From Candidatus Eremiobacteraceae bacterium (GTDB lineage Bacteria; Vulcanimicrobiota; Vulcanimicrobiia; Eremiobacterales; Eremiobacteraceae), in contig DASTCX010000016.1 in NCBI GenBank assembly GCA_035710745.1, forward strand, positions 62,001-126,000: a stretch of DNA of 64,000 bases, read 5' to 3'. The notes below the pieces were generated by a model. It had not been told where the DNA came from. It saw only the letters and a program-made list of their open reading frames with translations, and searched no databases. The position numbers and the translations under genes were made by a program. Shown in pieces: positions 55,698-63,535 of the stretch. The first letter of the stretch is position 1, and each line of letters opens with the position of its first letter.

Positions 55698-57713
55698 TTG
55701 CAAAAACGCGCGCTCATAACCGGCATCACCGGTCAAGACGGATCGTATCTCGCCGAGCTCTTGCTCGAAAAGGGCTACGACGTCTTCGGCATCACGCGGC
55801 GCTCGAGCACGAACTCGTTCGACCGCATCGAGCATATCATCGATCGCATCACGCTGCTGTCGGGCGATCTGCTCGACGAGCATTCGCTCGTCGCCGCCGT
55901 GCGGGAATCGCAGCCAGACGAGATCTACAATCTCGCCGCGCAGAGCTTCGTTCCGACGTCGTGGTCGCAGGCCGTTCTCACCGCGGAATTCACGGCCGTC
56001 GGCGTGACGCGCATGCTGGAAGCGATGCGCGCGGTCAAACCCGATGCGCGCTTCTATCAGGCATCGAGCAGCGAGATGTTCGGCAAGGTCGTCGAGACGC
56101 CGCAGACGGAGAAGACGCCGTTCTATCCTCGCAGTCCGTACGGCGTCGCAAAAGTGTACGGCCATTGGATCACGGTGAACTATCGCGAGTCGTACGGATT
56201 GTTCGCGTGCTCAGGAATACTTTTTAACCACGAAAGCTTATCGAGCAACAGCCCGGTTATCATCCGCGAGCGCGGTCTCGTAGACATCCTACCGATCAGC
56301 GAAGTGGTGTCGGTGCTGCCAAAGGGACCGGCCTATCAGCGCTTTGATACAAGCGGGCTAGAGGTGTGGGATGGCGACAGCTTCGTTCGAGTTCTGGGTG
56401 GAACGGCTTATCATCATGCGCCGCTTAAGCGCAACAAGGACGTTCGCCGGATCGAGGCACGATGCGGGAGCGTGACGACCACCGGCGATCACGTCGTTTT
56501 TCTGGACGATGAAGAACGAGCCAATCGCGACGTTCGTCAAGGTGATAGAATGCTGCGAGCTTCGTTGCCGCCGGCGCCCGGCGTTACGACAGTGAGCAGC
56601 GAACTTGCTTGGCTCCTAGGGGCTTTCGTCGGCGACGGAAGCGCCTATCTTCAAAGGGGTAACGCTAGGGCCAAATTCGTCAACAATGACTTGTCCCTAC
56701 GGCGCCGCTTTGCAGAAGCGTGGCAGCGAGTGACCTGCGGATGGTCTTCCGAGGCACGGGGAGTGTCGGGCTTCAGGGCAGGCGCCGTCGTGGGTGCGCT
56801 TGCGCTAAACGGAGCGTCGACGTTCGTCCAGTGGTTGCGCGACGAGTGCTACACCGACGACGGATACAAGCGGATACCGCGCATCGTCCTCAACGCCGAT
56901 GAGCAGACGATGGTCGCGTTTCTCGAGGGGTACAACGCGACGGACGGGCTCAAAGCCGGCAGCCCCCGTTACCAATTCAAGAACTTCAAGACGAACTCGC
57001 CGACGCTTGCGATGGGCCTTTGGTGGCTCGCTCGAGTCGCTCTCGATCAGCAGCCGGTGCTCAACGTCGATGTCGGACCACGCGAGCGTCCAGGACCGTT
57101 CTACTCCATGAACTTGCGGACGCCGGTAATCTCGAATCAGGGAGCGCACCTCCGGAGGGATCTTGCGGAAGTCAAGCGAGTTGTGTCGATACCCAACTAC
57201 GACGGTTGGCTCTACGATCTCACGACCGAGTCGGGCAAATTCCACGCCGGCGTCGGCGAGTGCGTCATACATAACTCGCCGCGTCGCGGTCTGGAGTTCG
57301 TCACGCGCAAGGTAACCGATGGGGTTGCTCGCATCAAGCTCGGGCTCGCTAAAGAACTACGTATGGGTAACCTCGACGCGCAACGCGATTGGGGTTACGC
57401 GCCCGACTACGTACGTGCGATGTGGATGATGCTGCAGCAGCCCGATGCGGACGACTACGTCATCTCGACGGGGCGCACGCACAGCGTGCAGCAGCTCGTC
57501 GAGACGGCGTTCTCGCATGTCGGGCTAGACTGGAAGAAACACGTCGTCATCGATCCGAAATTCATCCGCCCTGCCGAAGTGGACATGCTGATCGGCGACG
57601 CCACGAAAGCGCGCACGAAGCTCGGGTGGCAGCCCGAGGTGTCCTTCGAACAGCTCGTCGCCATCATGGTCGACGCCGACCTAGCGCGCCTCAAGCAGCA
57701 GCATCGAGCCTGA
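55698..57713 (+). CDS. gmd: GDP-mannose 4,6-dehydratase interrupted by an intein
   Basis: Converts GDP-D-mannose to GDP-4-keto-6-deoxy-D-mannose. The reading frame is 671 residues; removing the intein (residues 180-526) leaves 324, close to normal Gmd length. The N-extein has [20 protein letters not shown] (NADP motif), [22 protein letters not shown] and the catalytic [12 protein letters not shown]. The C-extein starts at Ser527 and continues with the expected [25 protein letters not shown] and [16 protein letters not shown] at 55698 follows a GGGGGGAAG site. It overlaps rmd by 1 nt. The enzyme is presumably inactive until splicing, because the insertion splits the NHES-PRRG motif near the cofactor. 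Confidence 0.92.
56235..57275 (+). mobile_element. Intein with LAGLIDADG homing endonuclease domain
   Basis: 347 residues inserted between Glu179 and Ser527 of Gmd. It starts with Ser ([14 protein letters not shown], block A). Block B contains the T-x-x-H element in [14 protein letters not shown]. Two DOD motifs are [16 protein letters not shown] (about 303-318) and [14 protein letters not shown] (about 405-418). Block F is [20 protein letters not shown] and block G ends GECVIHN, with Ser as the +1 extein residue. All residues needed for class 1 splicing are visible, in the Ser1 ... His-Asn / Ser+1 form. The DNA has visibly more A/T than its flanks, which suggests separate ancestry. Endonuclease activity is unproven. 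Confidence 0.93.
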
Positions 57714-58695: not shown

Positions 58696-59319
58696 ATGCA
58701 GGTCAGATCGGGCGGCTGGCGGACGATCGTCTTCAAGAACCGCGGGGCGCTCCTCGTGCCGGTCGCGCTCGTCTTGCTCATTTTCGGAAGACCGTCGATG
58801 CTGAGCGCGCAGATCGGCATCGCCGTCGCCGTGCTCGGCGAAGTGCTGCGTATCTGGGCTGTCGGCTATTCGGGCGAGACGACGCGGGCCGACATCGTCA
58901 CTGCGCCCGCGCTCGTGACGGCCGGGCCGTACGCCCTGACCCGAAATCCGCTTTACGTGGCGAACGCGATCATCGCGCTCGGGTTCTGGTATGCGTTCGC
59001 GGGCGGCATCTCGATCGCCGAAGCGTCGATGACGTTCGTCGTCGTCGTCGCACTCGTCGTCGGCGTGTACGCGATCATCATCCCGCTCGAAGAAGCATAC
59101 CTCGCCGGCCACTTCGGCGACGCGTATCGCCGCTATGTCGAGACGGTGCCCCGCATCGTACCCACCGGCAGCTCGCTCGCACCGGCTGACCGTTCGGGCA
59201 CATGGAAGCCCAACGTGATCATGAGAGCGGAGATCATCACGCTCATCTTTTTCATCCTGATGCTGACGATCGTTTACCTCAAGCTCGGCCAGTGGGCTGA
59301 TTGGGGGATCTACTTCTAG
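58696..59319 (+). CDS. Isoprenylcysteine/phospholipid methyltransferase-family membrane protein
   Basis: A 207-residue membrane protein with about five spans. It carries the ICMT/PEMT signature ALTRNPLYVANAIIALGFWY and, after two spans, EEAYLAGHFGDAYRRYVETVPRI (two parts: EEAYLAGHFG and YRRYVETVPR). These bind AdoMet in the family. Bacterial members methylate diverse hydrophobic substrates and mostly lack known roles. ATG at 58696 is the first start after the rmd stop that gives a normal N-terminus; the ribosome-binding site is weak. Confidence 0.78.
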   Translation: MQVRSGGWRTIVFKNRGALLVPVALVLLIFGRPSMLSAQIGIAVAVLGEVLRIWAVGYSGETTRADIVTAPALVTAGPYALTRNPLYVANAIIALGFWYAFAGGISIAEASMTFVVVVALVVGVYAIIIPLEEAYLAGHFGDAYRRYVETVPRIVPTGSSLAPADRSGTWKPNVIMRAEIITLIFFILMLTIVYLKLGQWADWGIYF

Positions 59320-59374
59320 GACGGCTCCAGCGAAAGAGCTCCCGAGCCGGCGCGAGCTCTAAGGCGAAATCGCG

Positions 59375-59399
59375 GCGGTCGACCGTAAAGGTCGACCGC
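59375..59399 (+). repeat. Palindromic element (CC/GG subtype)
   Basis: Arms GCGGTCGACC (59375-59384) and GGTCGACCGC (59390-59399), loop GTAAA, perfect 10-bp stem with the usual CGCGG left and CTCC right flanks. Its core is identical to the third copy of the 51859-51986 cluster. Confidence 0.93.
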
Positions 59400-59439
59400 T
59401 CCCCGGGACATTGGGAGGCCAGCGCAAGAATTCCGAATC

Positions 59440-59674
59440 GTGGGACCATCTCATCAGCCATTGCGAACGCCCGTTGGCTTGCTGGCGGAAGGACCGCGAT
59501 GCTACCCTTGGAATGCACCCATCCCGCCGGTACGCTTCGGGCCGATTCTGCGGAGATCAGGCGAGCGCCGCCGCCTGAATATCGGCCCAAGCAAGGCAAA
59601 AAGTGTGGCGATTTTCGAGAACGCCGGCGGGGAAATGCAACCACGGCCGCTGCCAACAGCGGCCGCTTTTTTTG
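59440..59674 (+). ncRNA. Candidate structured RNA or attenuated leader ending at a terminator
   Basis: Upstream of the terminator at 59645 lies about 200 nt of non-coding sequence. It contains an outer helix GGGCCGAT (59539-59546) with ATCGGCCC (59581-59588). Inside this lies a 7-bp hairpin TCAGGCG (59557-59563) with CGCCTGA (59572-59578). Nested perfect helices followed by an intrinsic terminator are what a small RNA or a riboswitch/attenuator would show. I do not recognise 6S, SRP, RNase P, tmRNA or a named riboswitch. The 5' end is a guess. Confidence 0.4.
59645..59674 (+). terminator. Rho-independent terminator
   Basis: A perfect 9-bp stem CGGCCGCTG (59645-59653) and CAGCGGCCG (59658-59666) with a CCAA loop is followed by C and seven T (59668-59674). 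This is the clearest intrinsic terminator in the window. It ends transcription upstream of the thiolase gene, or controls read-through into it. Confidence 0.88.
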
Positions 59675-59767: not shown

Positions 59768-61081
59768 GTGCCCGACACCGTTGTCGTCGCCGCCGTCCGC
59801 ACGCCGGTCGGCAAGCTCGGCGGCTCGCTCTCATCGCTCGCGGCGACGTCCCTCGGCGGCGAAGCGATCCGGGTCGCCGTCGCGCGCTGCGGCATCGACC
59901 CTTCGCAGATCGACCACTCGATCGTCGGCCAAGTCATCCAAGCCGGCGCCGGGCAAGCGCCGCACCGTCAGGTGACCTTCATCGCCGGCCTGCCGAAGAC
60001 GGTCACATCTGAGACGGTGAACAAAGTATGCGCGTCGGGAACGCTCGCCATCGCGTCGGCGCATCGGTTGATCCAAGCGGGCGCACATCGCTCGATCGTC
60101 GCGTCGGGTATGGAAAGCATGTCGCGCGCGCCCTATCTCGTTCCGGAAGCGCGCTTCGGATATCGCATGGGCGACGCGAAGCTCATCGATTCCATGATGA
60201 ACGATGGCCTTTGGGATGCGTTCCTCCACCAGACGATGGCGCAAGAGAGCGATCGGGTCGCAAGCCACCTCGGACTCGGTCGCGAGCGACAGGATGAATT
60301 CGCTCTGCGCAGCCACCATCACGCGGTCGATGCGTTCGAAAATGGACGCCTCGCCGACGAGATGATCCCGCTCAAGGTGGCGTCGAAGGCGCGCGGACGC
60401 CTCATCATCGACAAGATCCCCGCGTCGCGCGAGCTCGTCGGCGTCGGCGCGATGCGCATCGATGAAACACCCGACGAGTTCGTCGCCAAGCCTGAGAAGT
60501 TCTCGCCGTATCTCGCGGACCCAAGCGCGCCGTTCGCGCTCGTCGATCGCGACGAGGCGCCGCGAAAGGACACCAGCCTCGACGCGCTCGCGAAGCTGAA
60601 GCCGCTCAATCCTGGCGGGTCGATCACGGCAGGCAATGCTCCGGGAGTCAATGACGGCGCAGCTGCCCTCGTTCTCGTGTCGTCCGACTTCGCGCGGCAG
60701 AACGGTCTTACGCCGCTCGCCAAAGTGCTCGGCCACGCGACCGCCGCCTGGGATCCGCCCTACCTTCCTGTGACGCCCGCGATGGCCGCGGCCAAGCTCC
60801 TCGATGAACACAGGCTGCGTGTCGAAGACATCGCGCTCTGGGAGATCAACGAGGCGTTCGCCGCCGTCGCGCTCTCGTCGATCGACCGGCTCGGCCTCGA
60901 TCAAGAACGGGTCAACGTCGATGGCGGCGCGATCGCGATCGGGCACCCGCTCGGCGCGAGCGGCGCGAGAATCGTCGTCCATCTCATCCATGCCCTGCGC
61001 AAGCGCGGCGGCGGACTCGGCGTCGCGGCCATCTGCAGCGGCGGCGGTCAGGGAGATGCCCTGCTCGTCGAGGTCGGTTGA
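59768..61081 (+). CDS. Acetyl-CoA acetyltransferase-type thiolase
   Basis: A 437-residue thiolase (acetoacetyl-CoA or 3-ketoacyl-CoA). The acyl-accepting Cys is in VNKVCASGTLAIASAHRLI, with GGMESMS-like SGMESMSRAPYLV, the NEAFAAVALSSIDRLGL segment, and the C-terminal catalytic pair in GGAIAIGHPLGASGAR (His) and AICSGGGQGDAL (Cys). It is longer than the usual ~392 residues owing to an insert around 200-280 in the loop domain. GTG at 59768 with AGGAG at 59753-59757. It is followed after 15 bp by acyl-CoA dehydrogenase, forming a beta-oxidation or butanoate unit. Confidence 0.9.
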   Translation: MPDTVVVAAVRTPVGKLGGSLSSLAATSLGGEAIRVAVARCGIDPSQIDHSIVGQVIQAGAGQAPHRQVTFIAGLPKTVTSETVNKVCASGTLAIASAHRLIQAGAHRSIVASGMESMSRAPYLVPEARFGYRMGDAKLIDSMMNDGLWDAFLHQTMAQESDRVASHLGLGRERQDEFALRSHHHAVDAFENGRLADEMIPLKVASKARGRLIIDKIPASRELVGVGAMRIDETPDEFVAKPEKFSPYLADPSAPFALVDRDEAPRKDTSLDALAKLKPLNPGGSITAGNAPGVNDGAAALVLVSSDFARQNGLTPLAKVLGHATAAWDPPYLPVTPAMAAAKLLDEHRLRVEDIALWEINEAFAAVALSSIDRLGLDQERVNVDGGAIAIGHPLGASGARIVVHLIHALRKRGGGLGVAAICSGGGQGDALLVEVG

Positions 61082-61096
61082 GACTAAGGACGGGCG

Positions 61097-62314
61097 ATGG
61101 ATTTCGAACTCGGCGAAGAACAGCGCGCCGTCCGTGACATGGTAGCCGTGTTCGCAGCGCGCGAAGTAGCACCGCACGCGAACGACTGGGACCGCGAACA
61201 CACCTTCCCGGCTGACGTCTTCCGCAAGCTCGGCGAGATCGGTATCATGGGCATGACCGTGTCCGAGCGCTACGGCGGGGCCGCGCTCGACTCGATCAGC
61301 GCCGTTCTCGCGATCGAAGAGCTCAGCCGCGCGGACGCAGGTGTCGGCGTCACCGTCTCGGTCCACACGGGCCTAACCTCGCGCATCGTCGAGCTCTTCG
61401 GCTCCGAAGCGCAGAAGAAGCACTACCTCCCGCGCATGTGCACCGGGGAATGGCTTGGCGGCTTCGCCCTCACGGAAGCGGATTCCGGAAGCGATGCGGC
61501 ATCGCTGCGCACGCGCGCCGCGCGCCACGGCGACTGCTACGTCCTCGACGGCACGAAGCAGTGGGTCACGAACGGCGGTCACGCCAGGGTCTTCATCGTG
61601 TTCGCGCGCACCGGCGGACCCGGACCGAAAGGCATCTCAGCATTTCTCGTCGACCGCGATACGCCCGGCCTATCGCTCGGGCGCGTCACGGACAAGCTCG
61701 GGATCCACTCGTCCGACACGACCGATCTCGTCTTCGAGCACGGCGAAGTCCCGGCGGACGCGCTGCTTGGCGAAGAGAACGGCGGCTACAAGATCGCGCT
61801 CGCCACGCTGGGCAACGGCCGGCTCGGAATCGCGGCGCAAGCGGTCGGCATCCTCGCCGCCTGCCTCGATACCTCGCGTGCGTACGCGAAGGACCGCTTC
61901 CAGTTCGGCCGCCCGATAGGCGCGTTCCAGGGCATCGCGTTCAAGGTCGCAGACATGGCCGTCGACTTGGACGCCGCGCGGCTGCTGCTCTATCGCGCGG
62001 CGTGGCTGAAGGACCGCGGCGTCACATCGATCGACGCGTCGTCGAAGGCCAAACTCTTCGCGTCGACGGCTGCGCGCAAGCACGCCGCCGAGTGCATCCA
62101 GATCCTCGGCGGATACGGATACACGACCGAGTTCCCCGCCGAGCGCTACTATCGCGACTCGAAGATCACCGAGATCTACGAGGGCACGTCGGAGGTGCAG
62201 CGTATCGTCATCGCTCGCGAGCTCATCGGCCGGCTCGACGAGCGCACCGCGAAAGACCGGCCGGCGCCCCGGCTCACCGACGGCGCGGCGAAGGAGCCCG
62301 CCACAAAACACTAG
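61097..62314 (+). CDS. Acyl-CoA dehydrogenase (short/medium-chain type)
   Basis: A 405-residue FAD enzyme introducing the 2,3-double bond in acyl-CoAs. It has FELGEEQRAVRDMVAVFAAR, GFALTEADSGSDAASLRTRA (FAD/substrate), YVLDGTKQWVTNGGHARVF, DRFQFGRPIGAFQGIAFKVA, ECIQILGGYGYTTEFPAERY and the catalytic Glu in ITEIYEGTSEVQRIVIARE. The last ~20 residues are a polar tail beyond the usual end. It lies between thiolase and sucC; an electron-transfer flavoprotein is not in the window. Confidence 0.93.
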   Translation: MDFELGEEQRAVRDMVAVFAAREVAPHANDWDREHTFPADVFRKLGEIGIMGMTVSERYGGAALDSISAVLAIEELSRADAGVGVTVSVHTGLTSRIVELFGSEAQKKHYLPRMCTGEWLGGFALTEADSGSDAASLRTRAARHGDCYVLDGTKQWVTNGGHARVFIVFARTGGPGPKGISAFLVDRDTPGLSLGRVTDKLGIHSSDTTDLVFEHGEVPADALLGEENGGYKIALATLGNGRLGIAAQAVGILAACLDTSRAYAKDRFQFGRPIGAFQGIAFKVADMAVDLDAARLLLYRAAWLKDRGVTSIDASSKAKLFASTAARKHAAECIQILGGYGYTTEFPAERYYRDSKITEIYEGTSEVQRIVIARELIGRLDERTAKDRPAPRLTDGAAKEPATKH

Positions 62315-62371: not shown

Positions 62372-63535
62372 ATGAGACTGCTCGAGTATCAAGGCAAAGA
62401 ATTGTTCGCCCGAGCGGGCATCCCGGTGCCCAAGGGCAAGGTCGCGTCAACGGTCGAGGAAGCGGTTGCGATCATGCACGCGAACCCGGCGCCGTCCGCC
62501 GTCAAAGCGCAAGTGCTCATCGGCGGCCGCGGCAAAGCCGGCGGCATCAAGTTCTGCAGCGACGAGCGCGACGTCGTCGAGCCCACGAAGGCGATCCTCG
62601 GCATGCGAATCGCGAACGCCCAAGACCCGGTCGGCGAGATCGTCAAGCGCGTCTGGATCGAGCAGCGCATGGACATCGCCAAGGAGTTGTACCTCTCGAT
62701 AACCGTCGATCGCGCATCGAAGCGCCCTATCATCATGGCGTCTGCGATGGGCGGCATGGACGTCGAAGAGGTCGCTGAGAAGCATCCCGAGGCGATCGCG
62801 AAGTATCGCGTCGATCCGTCCGTCGGCTATTGGCCGTTCATCGGCCGCCGGCTCGCCCGCGAAGCGGACCTGCCCAAAGAAGTGAGCAACGAGTTCGCGT
62901 CGATCGTCGGCAAGCTCTACGCGCTCTTCTTCGACGTCGGGGCATTGCTCGTCGAGATCAATCCGCTCGCCGTGACCAAAGACGGCAAGCTCGTCGCGTC
63001 GGATTCGAAAGTCGACCTCGACGACAATGCGATGTTCCGCCACAAGGAGCTCGCCGCATGGAAGCCCGAGGGCGAACGCGATCCGCTCAAGGAGCGCGCG
63101 ATCGCGGCCGGCCTTGGTGAGAACAACTACGTCCAGCTCGACGGCGACGTCGGCATCATCGGCAACGGCGCCGGCCTCGTCATGGGCACGCTCGACGCCG
63201 TCAAAGCCGCCGGCGGTCAGCCTGCGAACTTCCTCGATATCGGCGGGGGCGCTAAGGCAGACGTCATGCGCGAAGCGGTCAACATCGTCACGTCGAACCC
63301 GAAAGTCCGCTCGCTCTTCATCAATATATTCGGCGGCATCACGCGCGGCGACGAAGTCGCGAAAGGACTCGTCGAGGCGTTGGCAGGCGGCGGCTGGGAT
63401 CGCCGCAAGCTCGTCATACGATTGACGGGCACGAACGAAAAAGAAGGCCGTGAGGTGCTCCGCCAAAACAACATCGAAGCGGTCGAGACCATGAACGAAG
63501 GGGCGAAGCACGCGGTCGCCCTCGCACGAGCATAG
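62372..63535 (+). CDS. sucC: Succinyl-CoA synthetase beta subunit (ADP-forming)
   Basis: The nucleotide-binding subunit of succinyl-CoA ligase in the TCA cycle. The 387-residue protein has [20 protein letters not shown], the ATP-grasp segments [18 protein letters not shown] and [20 protein letters not shown], the metal/nucleotide segment [39 protein letters not shown] and [20 protein letters not shown]. Standard length and N-terminus. SucD follows 10 bp later. Confidence 0.95.

Follow-up and report, generated by a model that had tools for sequence, protein, structure and literature searches.

What does the gene-free DNA in front of a thiolase gene of Candidatus Eremiobacteraceae bacterium encode, and does it control the genes that follow? 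The locus is part of a contiguous stretch of 64,000 nucleotides, referred to here as the window. The first-pass annotation of the window reported a gene-free gap of 448 bp, and the gap stands, bounded by the end of the methyltransferase ORF at 59319 and the GTG start codon of the thiolase gene at 59768. It is almost certain that the gap contains a structured RNA under selection. The features of the locus are listed in Table 1.

Table 1. Positions in the window of the RNA, its signals and the neighbouring genes
Feature	Position	Strand	Evidence
Methyltransferase (PEMT/ICMT-like), synteny anchor	58711–59316	+	Pfam PF04191/PF04140; ortholog in 14/14 family genomes
Spaced palindrome TTCCG-N6-GGGAC, probable regulator site	59431–59446	+	Starts 48 nt upstream of -35 (start to start)
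CGAAC-N4-GTTG box, operator-like	59464–59476	+	15 nt before -35
Promoter TTGCTG, 18 nt, TACCCT, with TGC before -10	59479–59508	+	Pattern in 10/13 homologs
Predicted transcript, about 160 nt	59515–59673	+	Inferred from promoter and terminator positions; start put 7 nt after -10
P1 outer helix, 5' strand TGCACCCATCCCGCCGGT	59514–59531	+	Arms co-vary; 0/20,000 permutations as good, also with one genome per genus
P2, 5' strand GGGCCGAT	59539–59546	+	2/6 model pairs changed on both sides; permutation p 0.00015, one genome per genus
Invariant UCUGCGGAGA, P2/P3 junction	59547–59556	+	Found in 13/13 homologs
P3 hairpin TCAGGCG (59557–59563)/CGCCTGA (59572–59578), 8-nt loop	59557–59578	+	3/7 model pairs changed on both sides; permutation p 0.005, one genome per genus
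P2, 3' strand ATCGGCCC	59581–59588	+	As P2 5' strand
P1 outer helix, 3' strand GCCGGCGGGGAAATGCA	59623–59639	+	As P1 5' strand
Intrinsic terminator	59644–59673	+	Stem 59644–59665, seven T 59667–59673; predicted in 13/13 homologs
Thiolase, first downstream gene	59768–61081	+	Pfam; NCBIfam acetyl-CoA C-acyltransferase above cut-off
Acyl-CoA dehydrogenase, after thiolase	61097–62314	+	
sucC-like gene, after acyl-CoA dehydrogenase	62372–63535	+	
sucD-like gene, after sucC-like gene	from 63546	+	

A palindromic dispersed repeat with GGTCGACC arms (window positions 59359–59404) is located just upstream of the RNA and is separate from it. Genomes G000 and G001 have many copies of the repeat, and G003, G009, and G012 have partial matches to it. 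A GDP-mannose 4,6-dehydratase gene of the window (55698–57713) is interrupted in frame by an insertion of about 300 amino acids. The ORF matches the gmd family in two stretches, and its residues 246–418 have a weak match to a portion of a long model for ribonucleotide reductase. The insertion ends with VIHN before a serine and is presumably an intein; a similar ORF of 323 amino acids in G009 has no interruption.

Structure of the RNA

The individual folds of the intact copies converge on one architecture, in which P1 leads to P2, P2 to UCUGCGGAGA and P3, and the terminator follows. The nested helix of the first-pass annotation is recovered as P2 enclosing P3, whereas the outer helix P1 around it, the promoter, and the two boxes upstream of the promoter had been overlooked. 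The minimum-energy folds disagree in the interior of the RNA, notably those of G002, G006, and G009. It is possible that UCUGCGGAGA forms a mini-hairpin of UCU and AGA with a GCGG loop; the sequence does not vary across the homologs, and therefore gives no covariation signal either way.

The folding energy of a 301-nt region is unremarkable, with a z-score of -1.1 and 12 of 100 shuffled sequences folding as well. The segment 59509–59673 is matched by none of 200 shuffles (z -3.5), and by one of 200 after removal of the terminator (z -2.7). With the terminator left out, ten of the 11 intact copies have a more stable fold than 95% of their 200 shuffles, with z-scores from -1.8 to -5.0. That level is not reached by G007 (z -0.7), the shortened copy of G003 (z +1.1), or that of G012 (z -1.0).

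The sequences of the P1 arms differ among the nine genera, and the pairing is kept within each genome. The mean energy of P1 is -25.4 kcal/mol for the true pairs and -17.6 kcal/mol for re-paired arms from 11 genomes, and none of 20,000 permutations is as good. The main test omits the degenerate copies of G003 and G012, but the result holds when both are added, giving all 13 copies, and when each of the nine genera is represented by one genome. Some true pairs are not top-ranked in the tests of P1, P2, and P3; the P1 of G007 has rank 3 of 9.

Two covariance models of the RNA were used: R1, a model of the core from five family members, and R2, built from nine. The R2-guided alignment of the core comprises ten copies, nine of them distinct, and because it is fitted to the structure it leans towards it. 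Standard pairs occupy 95.1% of the paired cells in this alignment, and five of the 16 pairs changed on both sides. None of 500 shuffles reaches four of the five covariation measures, including the share of standard pairs and the changes on both sides; 140 of the 500 reach the fifth, further pair types. Moving the partner by one column reduces the pairing to 57–62%. The paired cells contain 11 G-U and one A-C combination, which points to the plus strand as the RNA. A comparative alignment of relatives had been proposed as a check in the first-pass annotation; the helices in it covary, so that a lack of covariation cannot be held against the element.

Promoter and upstream boxes

A promoter pattern, TTGNNN-N18-TA[TC][CT][CT]T with a spacer of 17 in G006, precedes the RNA in ten of the 13 copies and always has TGN before the -10 hexamer. 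It is missing from G003, G007, and G012. Promoter prediction run on the window reports none at this site, where the window copy matches the consensus poorly. The palindrome, in the form T[CT]CC[GA]-N5/6-GGGAC, is found in all 13 copies, and its distance from the -35 hexamer is exactly that of the window in all ten copies with the promoter pattern. The second box, CGAAC-N4-GT[TA]G, occurs in nine of the 13 homologs, also with a constant start relative to the -35 hexamer. The patterns were written after the sequences had been seen, so the chance of 0.001–0.008 per pattern per sequence, estimated by mononucleotide shuffling, is flattering. Judging from these signals and the terminator, it is likely that a discrete transcript is made.

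The lexA-like gene of the same genome is preceded by two boxes, CGAACATATGTTTG and CGAACAGATGTTTG. The CGAAC half of the RNA's second box is identical to their left half, and the other half deviates. LexA binding or SOS control at this site would be a guess from the sequence. G003, G012, and G007 have no promoter pattern of the RNA and yet retain the palindrome, which may serve something other than the RNA promoter. A regulon-wide role of the palindrome was rejected: a search with ATYCCG-N6-GGGACM gave 13 matches in 14 genomes, of which nine are at the RNA locus and four elsewhere, compared to four for a reversed control.

Distribution and decay of the RNA

Of the 14 genomes of the window's family, 13 have the element after the same methyltransferase gene; the contig of G001 stops within that gene. 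UCUGCGGAGA and the terminator are present at all 13 readable loci. The copy of G008, which is divided between two contig ends, both containing the core, is counted once, and the adjacency of its halves is inferred. A DNA search of 61 genomes found matches to parts of 59430–59580 in five other family genomes, whereas at E ≤ 1 there were matches in 59 of the 61, mostly to the dispersed repeat or by chance.

Among 117 genomes of the class, R1 finds the window copy with an E-value of 5e-9. At E ≤ 0.05 it has matches in 19 genomes: six are strong, two are weak and confirmed by synteny (G004 and G011), and 11 are weak and unconfirmed, ten in sister family f2 and one in G001; the alignments read among these 11 are those of G100 and G097. 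In the same 117 genomes, R2 finds ten family genomes and one weak f2 match (G114, E 0.008). It misses G003, G007, and G012, the copies of which are known by synteny only. Matches of R1 and R2 to their own members arise by construction; G000 belongs to neither set and is found by both. Outside the family, the matches among the 117 genomes are weak and mostly unverified, and since the searches scored 48 candidates per genome, absence from the rest of the class is not proven.

Two sister species, G003 and G012, have lost the -10 hexamer and P3 and have a shortened RNA, whereas they keep the terminator and the downstream gene. The copy of G007 fits poorly throughout, in its promoter region, the energy of its body, and the rank of its P1, and could be decaying. 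UCUGCGGAGA is in none of 16 examined genomes of the sister families f2 and f3, all of which have the methyltransferase gene. This distribution suggests that the RNA arose in the window's family or was lost outside it. Two pattern matches in viruses are not backed by the models, and no plasmid copies were found at E 1e-5. A conserved short ORF within the RNA was also rejected, as the longest ORFs do not share a reading frame across the motif but use three.

A different, highly structured RNA candidate of about 390 nt was seen in four genomes of f3 (L219:1501–1903 of G022, and L220, L221, and L222), which are all the f3 genomes among the matches listed. It has a long closing stem and a promoter-like start with TATACT, and its copies are 81–91% identical to that of G022. 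The candidate is in the same methyltransferase–thiolase gap in G022 and G039, and in G061 and G062 it is followed by thiolase. It has no Rfam match up to an E-value of 0.5 in L200 and L201.

Terminator and downstream genes

The textbook terminator described in the first-pass annotation about 95 bp before the thiolase gene is present, with its T-tract ending 94 nt before the GTG codon. In all 13 homologs the finished terminator forms with the remainder of the fold in place, at a probability of 1.00. Its core GGCCGC/GCGGCC is identical in all of them, although the sequences of P1–P3 turn over freely. In a classic attenuator, an upstream segment would be expected to compete for the first arm of the terminator. 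When transcripts are cut after this arm, its partner lies in the 5' (P1) region for 11 of the 13 homologs, with mean pairing probabilities of 0.13–0.83, the strongest being in G004. In G006 the arm pairs with the core region, at the 5' strand of P2 (0.93), and in the window it has almost no partner (0.01). The partner bases shift from species to species, and the folds of the 13 homologs contain no strong shared antiterminator. The GCGG loop could form four base pairs, identified by eye, with CCGC of the terminator arm; however, the fold of the cut transcript gives this no support. The modelled folds favour a constitutive terminator, and an antiterminator competing with P1 may form in some species.

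A gene of acyl-CoA metabolism comes directly after the RNA in all 13 genomes: thiolase in five and 3-hydroxybutyryl-CoA dehydrogenase in eight. The distance from the end of the T-tract to the start codon of this gene is 15–94 nt, with start codons chosen among several candidates. In the genomes of genus g4 (G004, G011, and G013) it is 15–17 nt, which is too short for a promoter, so the operon must be either read through the terminator or started inside the RNA. As judged from this spacing, the operon is probably transcribed through the terminator in g4.

The order of methyltransferase and thiolase is not confined to the family. In the 14 f2 genomes, thiolase is close behind the methyltransferase gene in four, about 1 kb on in six, apparently with another gene between, and not within 1.5 kb in four. 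The four f2 genomes with the close arrangement (G017, G018, G030, and G031) showed no motif and no run of six T. A thiolase scan of genome contigs gave 80 distant loci (L031–L110), which were left out of the comparison. As it is found in f2 as well, the order of methyltransferase and thiolase is old, and gene order alone does not prove control in cis. The different RNA candidate at this place in f3 further lowers the weight of position as evidence. Furthermore, G003, G012, and G007 keep the downstream gene without the promoter pattern, which indicates that this gene does not always need the promoter of the RNA. From its position, it is plausible that the RNA controls the thiolase and acyl-CoA dehydrogenase genes.

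Comparison with known RNAs

The first-pass annotation could not match the element to a known class, and the Rfam covariance search that it called for agrees. There are no Rfam 15 matches at the gathering score in the 64-kb window. At a lax threshold the RNA region has six sub-threshold matches, the best of which, sroB, scores 21.2 bits against the 44 needed (E 3.2). Ten of the 12 other homologs were searched and have no match inside the RNA up to E 0.5, and two sub-threshold matches outside it. No title among the papers listed refers to an RNA of this kind, from which we do not claim its absence from print. The RNA family is absent from Rfam 15, and any function given to it is a guess.

6S RNA has a long closing stem and a length similar to that of the element. 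However, the element gives no 6S match, and the genome's one match to 6S RNA (RF00013, 86.7 bits) is on contig C4. The genome's one match to the bacterial small SRP RNA (RF00169) is likewise away from the RNA locus, on contig C13. The element resembles stand-alone small RNA genes in its gene-free position, its own promoter pattern (10 of 13 homologs), its predicted discrete length, and its strong predicted terminator (13 of 13). It differs from them in having one long enclosing helix and an invariant junction, with no obvious open seed region and no Rfam match. With terminating riboswitches, including orphan candidates before metabolic operons, it shares a structured domain with conserved unpaired junction nucleotides and covarying helices, and a terminator just before a metabolic operon. 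In contrast to these riboswitches, there is no strong shared antiterminator, and the terminator and P1 form together.

Possible functions of the RNA

The structure and its covariation, the conserved promoter pattern, the terminator, and the lack of room for a promoter between terminator and operon in one genus are all established by comparison of sequences. The first-pass annotation had proposed a small RNA or an attenuating riboswitch. A structured RNA with covarying helices and a terminator, followed by an acyl-CoA gene in all homologs, is indeed present, but a switching attenuator is not borne out by the terminator, which forms in every homolog, or by its weak and shifting partners. We hold with moderate confidence that the element is a family-specific structured RNA gene yielding both a discrete RNA and the leader of an operon. 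The dedicated promoter with its two fixed upstream boxes would start the transcript near 59515, and the transcript would fold into the long closing helix P1 around the junction of P2, P3, and the invariant UCUGCGGAGA. With its own intrinsic terminator at the end, it would be made and accumulate as a discrete RNA of about 160–180 nt, the invariant junction of which may bind a protein or a metabolite. The same transcript would serve as 5' leader for the acyl-CoA operon downstream, so that the fraction of polymerases reading through the terminator would feed that operon, from its first gene, thiolase or 3-hydroxybutyryl-CoA dehydrogenase, onwards.

The promoter pattern, the terminator that folds in every homolog, and the lack of a strong shared antiterminator would also be expected of a purely stand-alone RNA that acts in trans or binds protein, with the operon served by other transcription and the position reflecting conserved gene order. 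The degenerate RNA in G003 and G012, where the downstream gene stays, and the methyltransferase–thiolase order in f2 fit this explanation, but the short distance between terminator and start codon in G004, G011, and G013 would demand either read-through or a promoter hidden within the RNA, and we regard this explanation as rather unlikely. A ligand-sensing riboswitch or attenuator, the junction of which would bind a metabolite of the acyl-CoA pathway and change termination before the operon, appears somewhat less likely still. The invariant junction with covarying helices is aptamer-like, the terminator is just before an acyl-CoA gene in every homolog, and the pairing of the terminator arm with the P1 region in most cut transcripts is what a P1-competing antiterminator would need. 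However, the partners of the arm shift among species, are absent in the window and are elsewhere in G006, the finished terminator wins in all 13 homologs, and G003 and G012 lost P3 and the promoter and kept the terminator and the downstream gene. It is doubtful that the RNA founds a new class of sensors or antiterminators, in which the UCUGCGGAGA junction would recognise a CoA-pathway metabolite or the polymerase and set the read-through of the invariant GGCCGC terminator.

RNAs of the CsrB/RsmZ type have GGA in a loop, as does the element, in which GGA is within UCUGCGGAGA, and the window's genome contains csrA. The gene is patchy in the family, f1, with matches in eight of 14 genomes. An RNA sequestering CsrA through the conserved loop is largely refuted by this distribution and highly improbable, because the motif persists in the six genomes without a csrA match (G004, G005, G006, G007, G011, and G013, the last of which is 72% complete). 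Equally improbable is a chance fold next to an ordinary terminator that belongs to the upstream gene. Taken as a whole, the 301-nt region does not exceed its shuffles in stability, but the comparative evidence is decisive: the covariation, the invariant motif, and the conserved geometry of the promoter refute this explanation.

The element adds to the known RNAs a structured family that is absent from Rfam 15 and has a covariation-tested model. It also has an evolutionary record: most genera of one family have it intact, two sister species have a decayed copy, and in two sister families it was not seen after the methyltransferase gene in any of 16 genomes. Its position before a gene cluster linked to beta-oxidation and the TCA cycle makes RNA control of acyl-CoA metabolism in this lineage directly testable.
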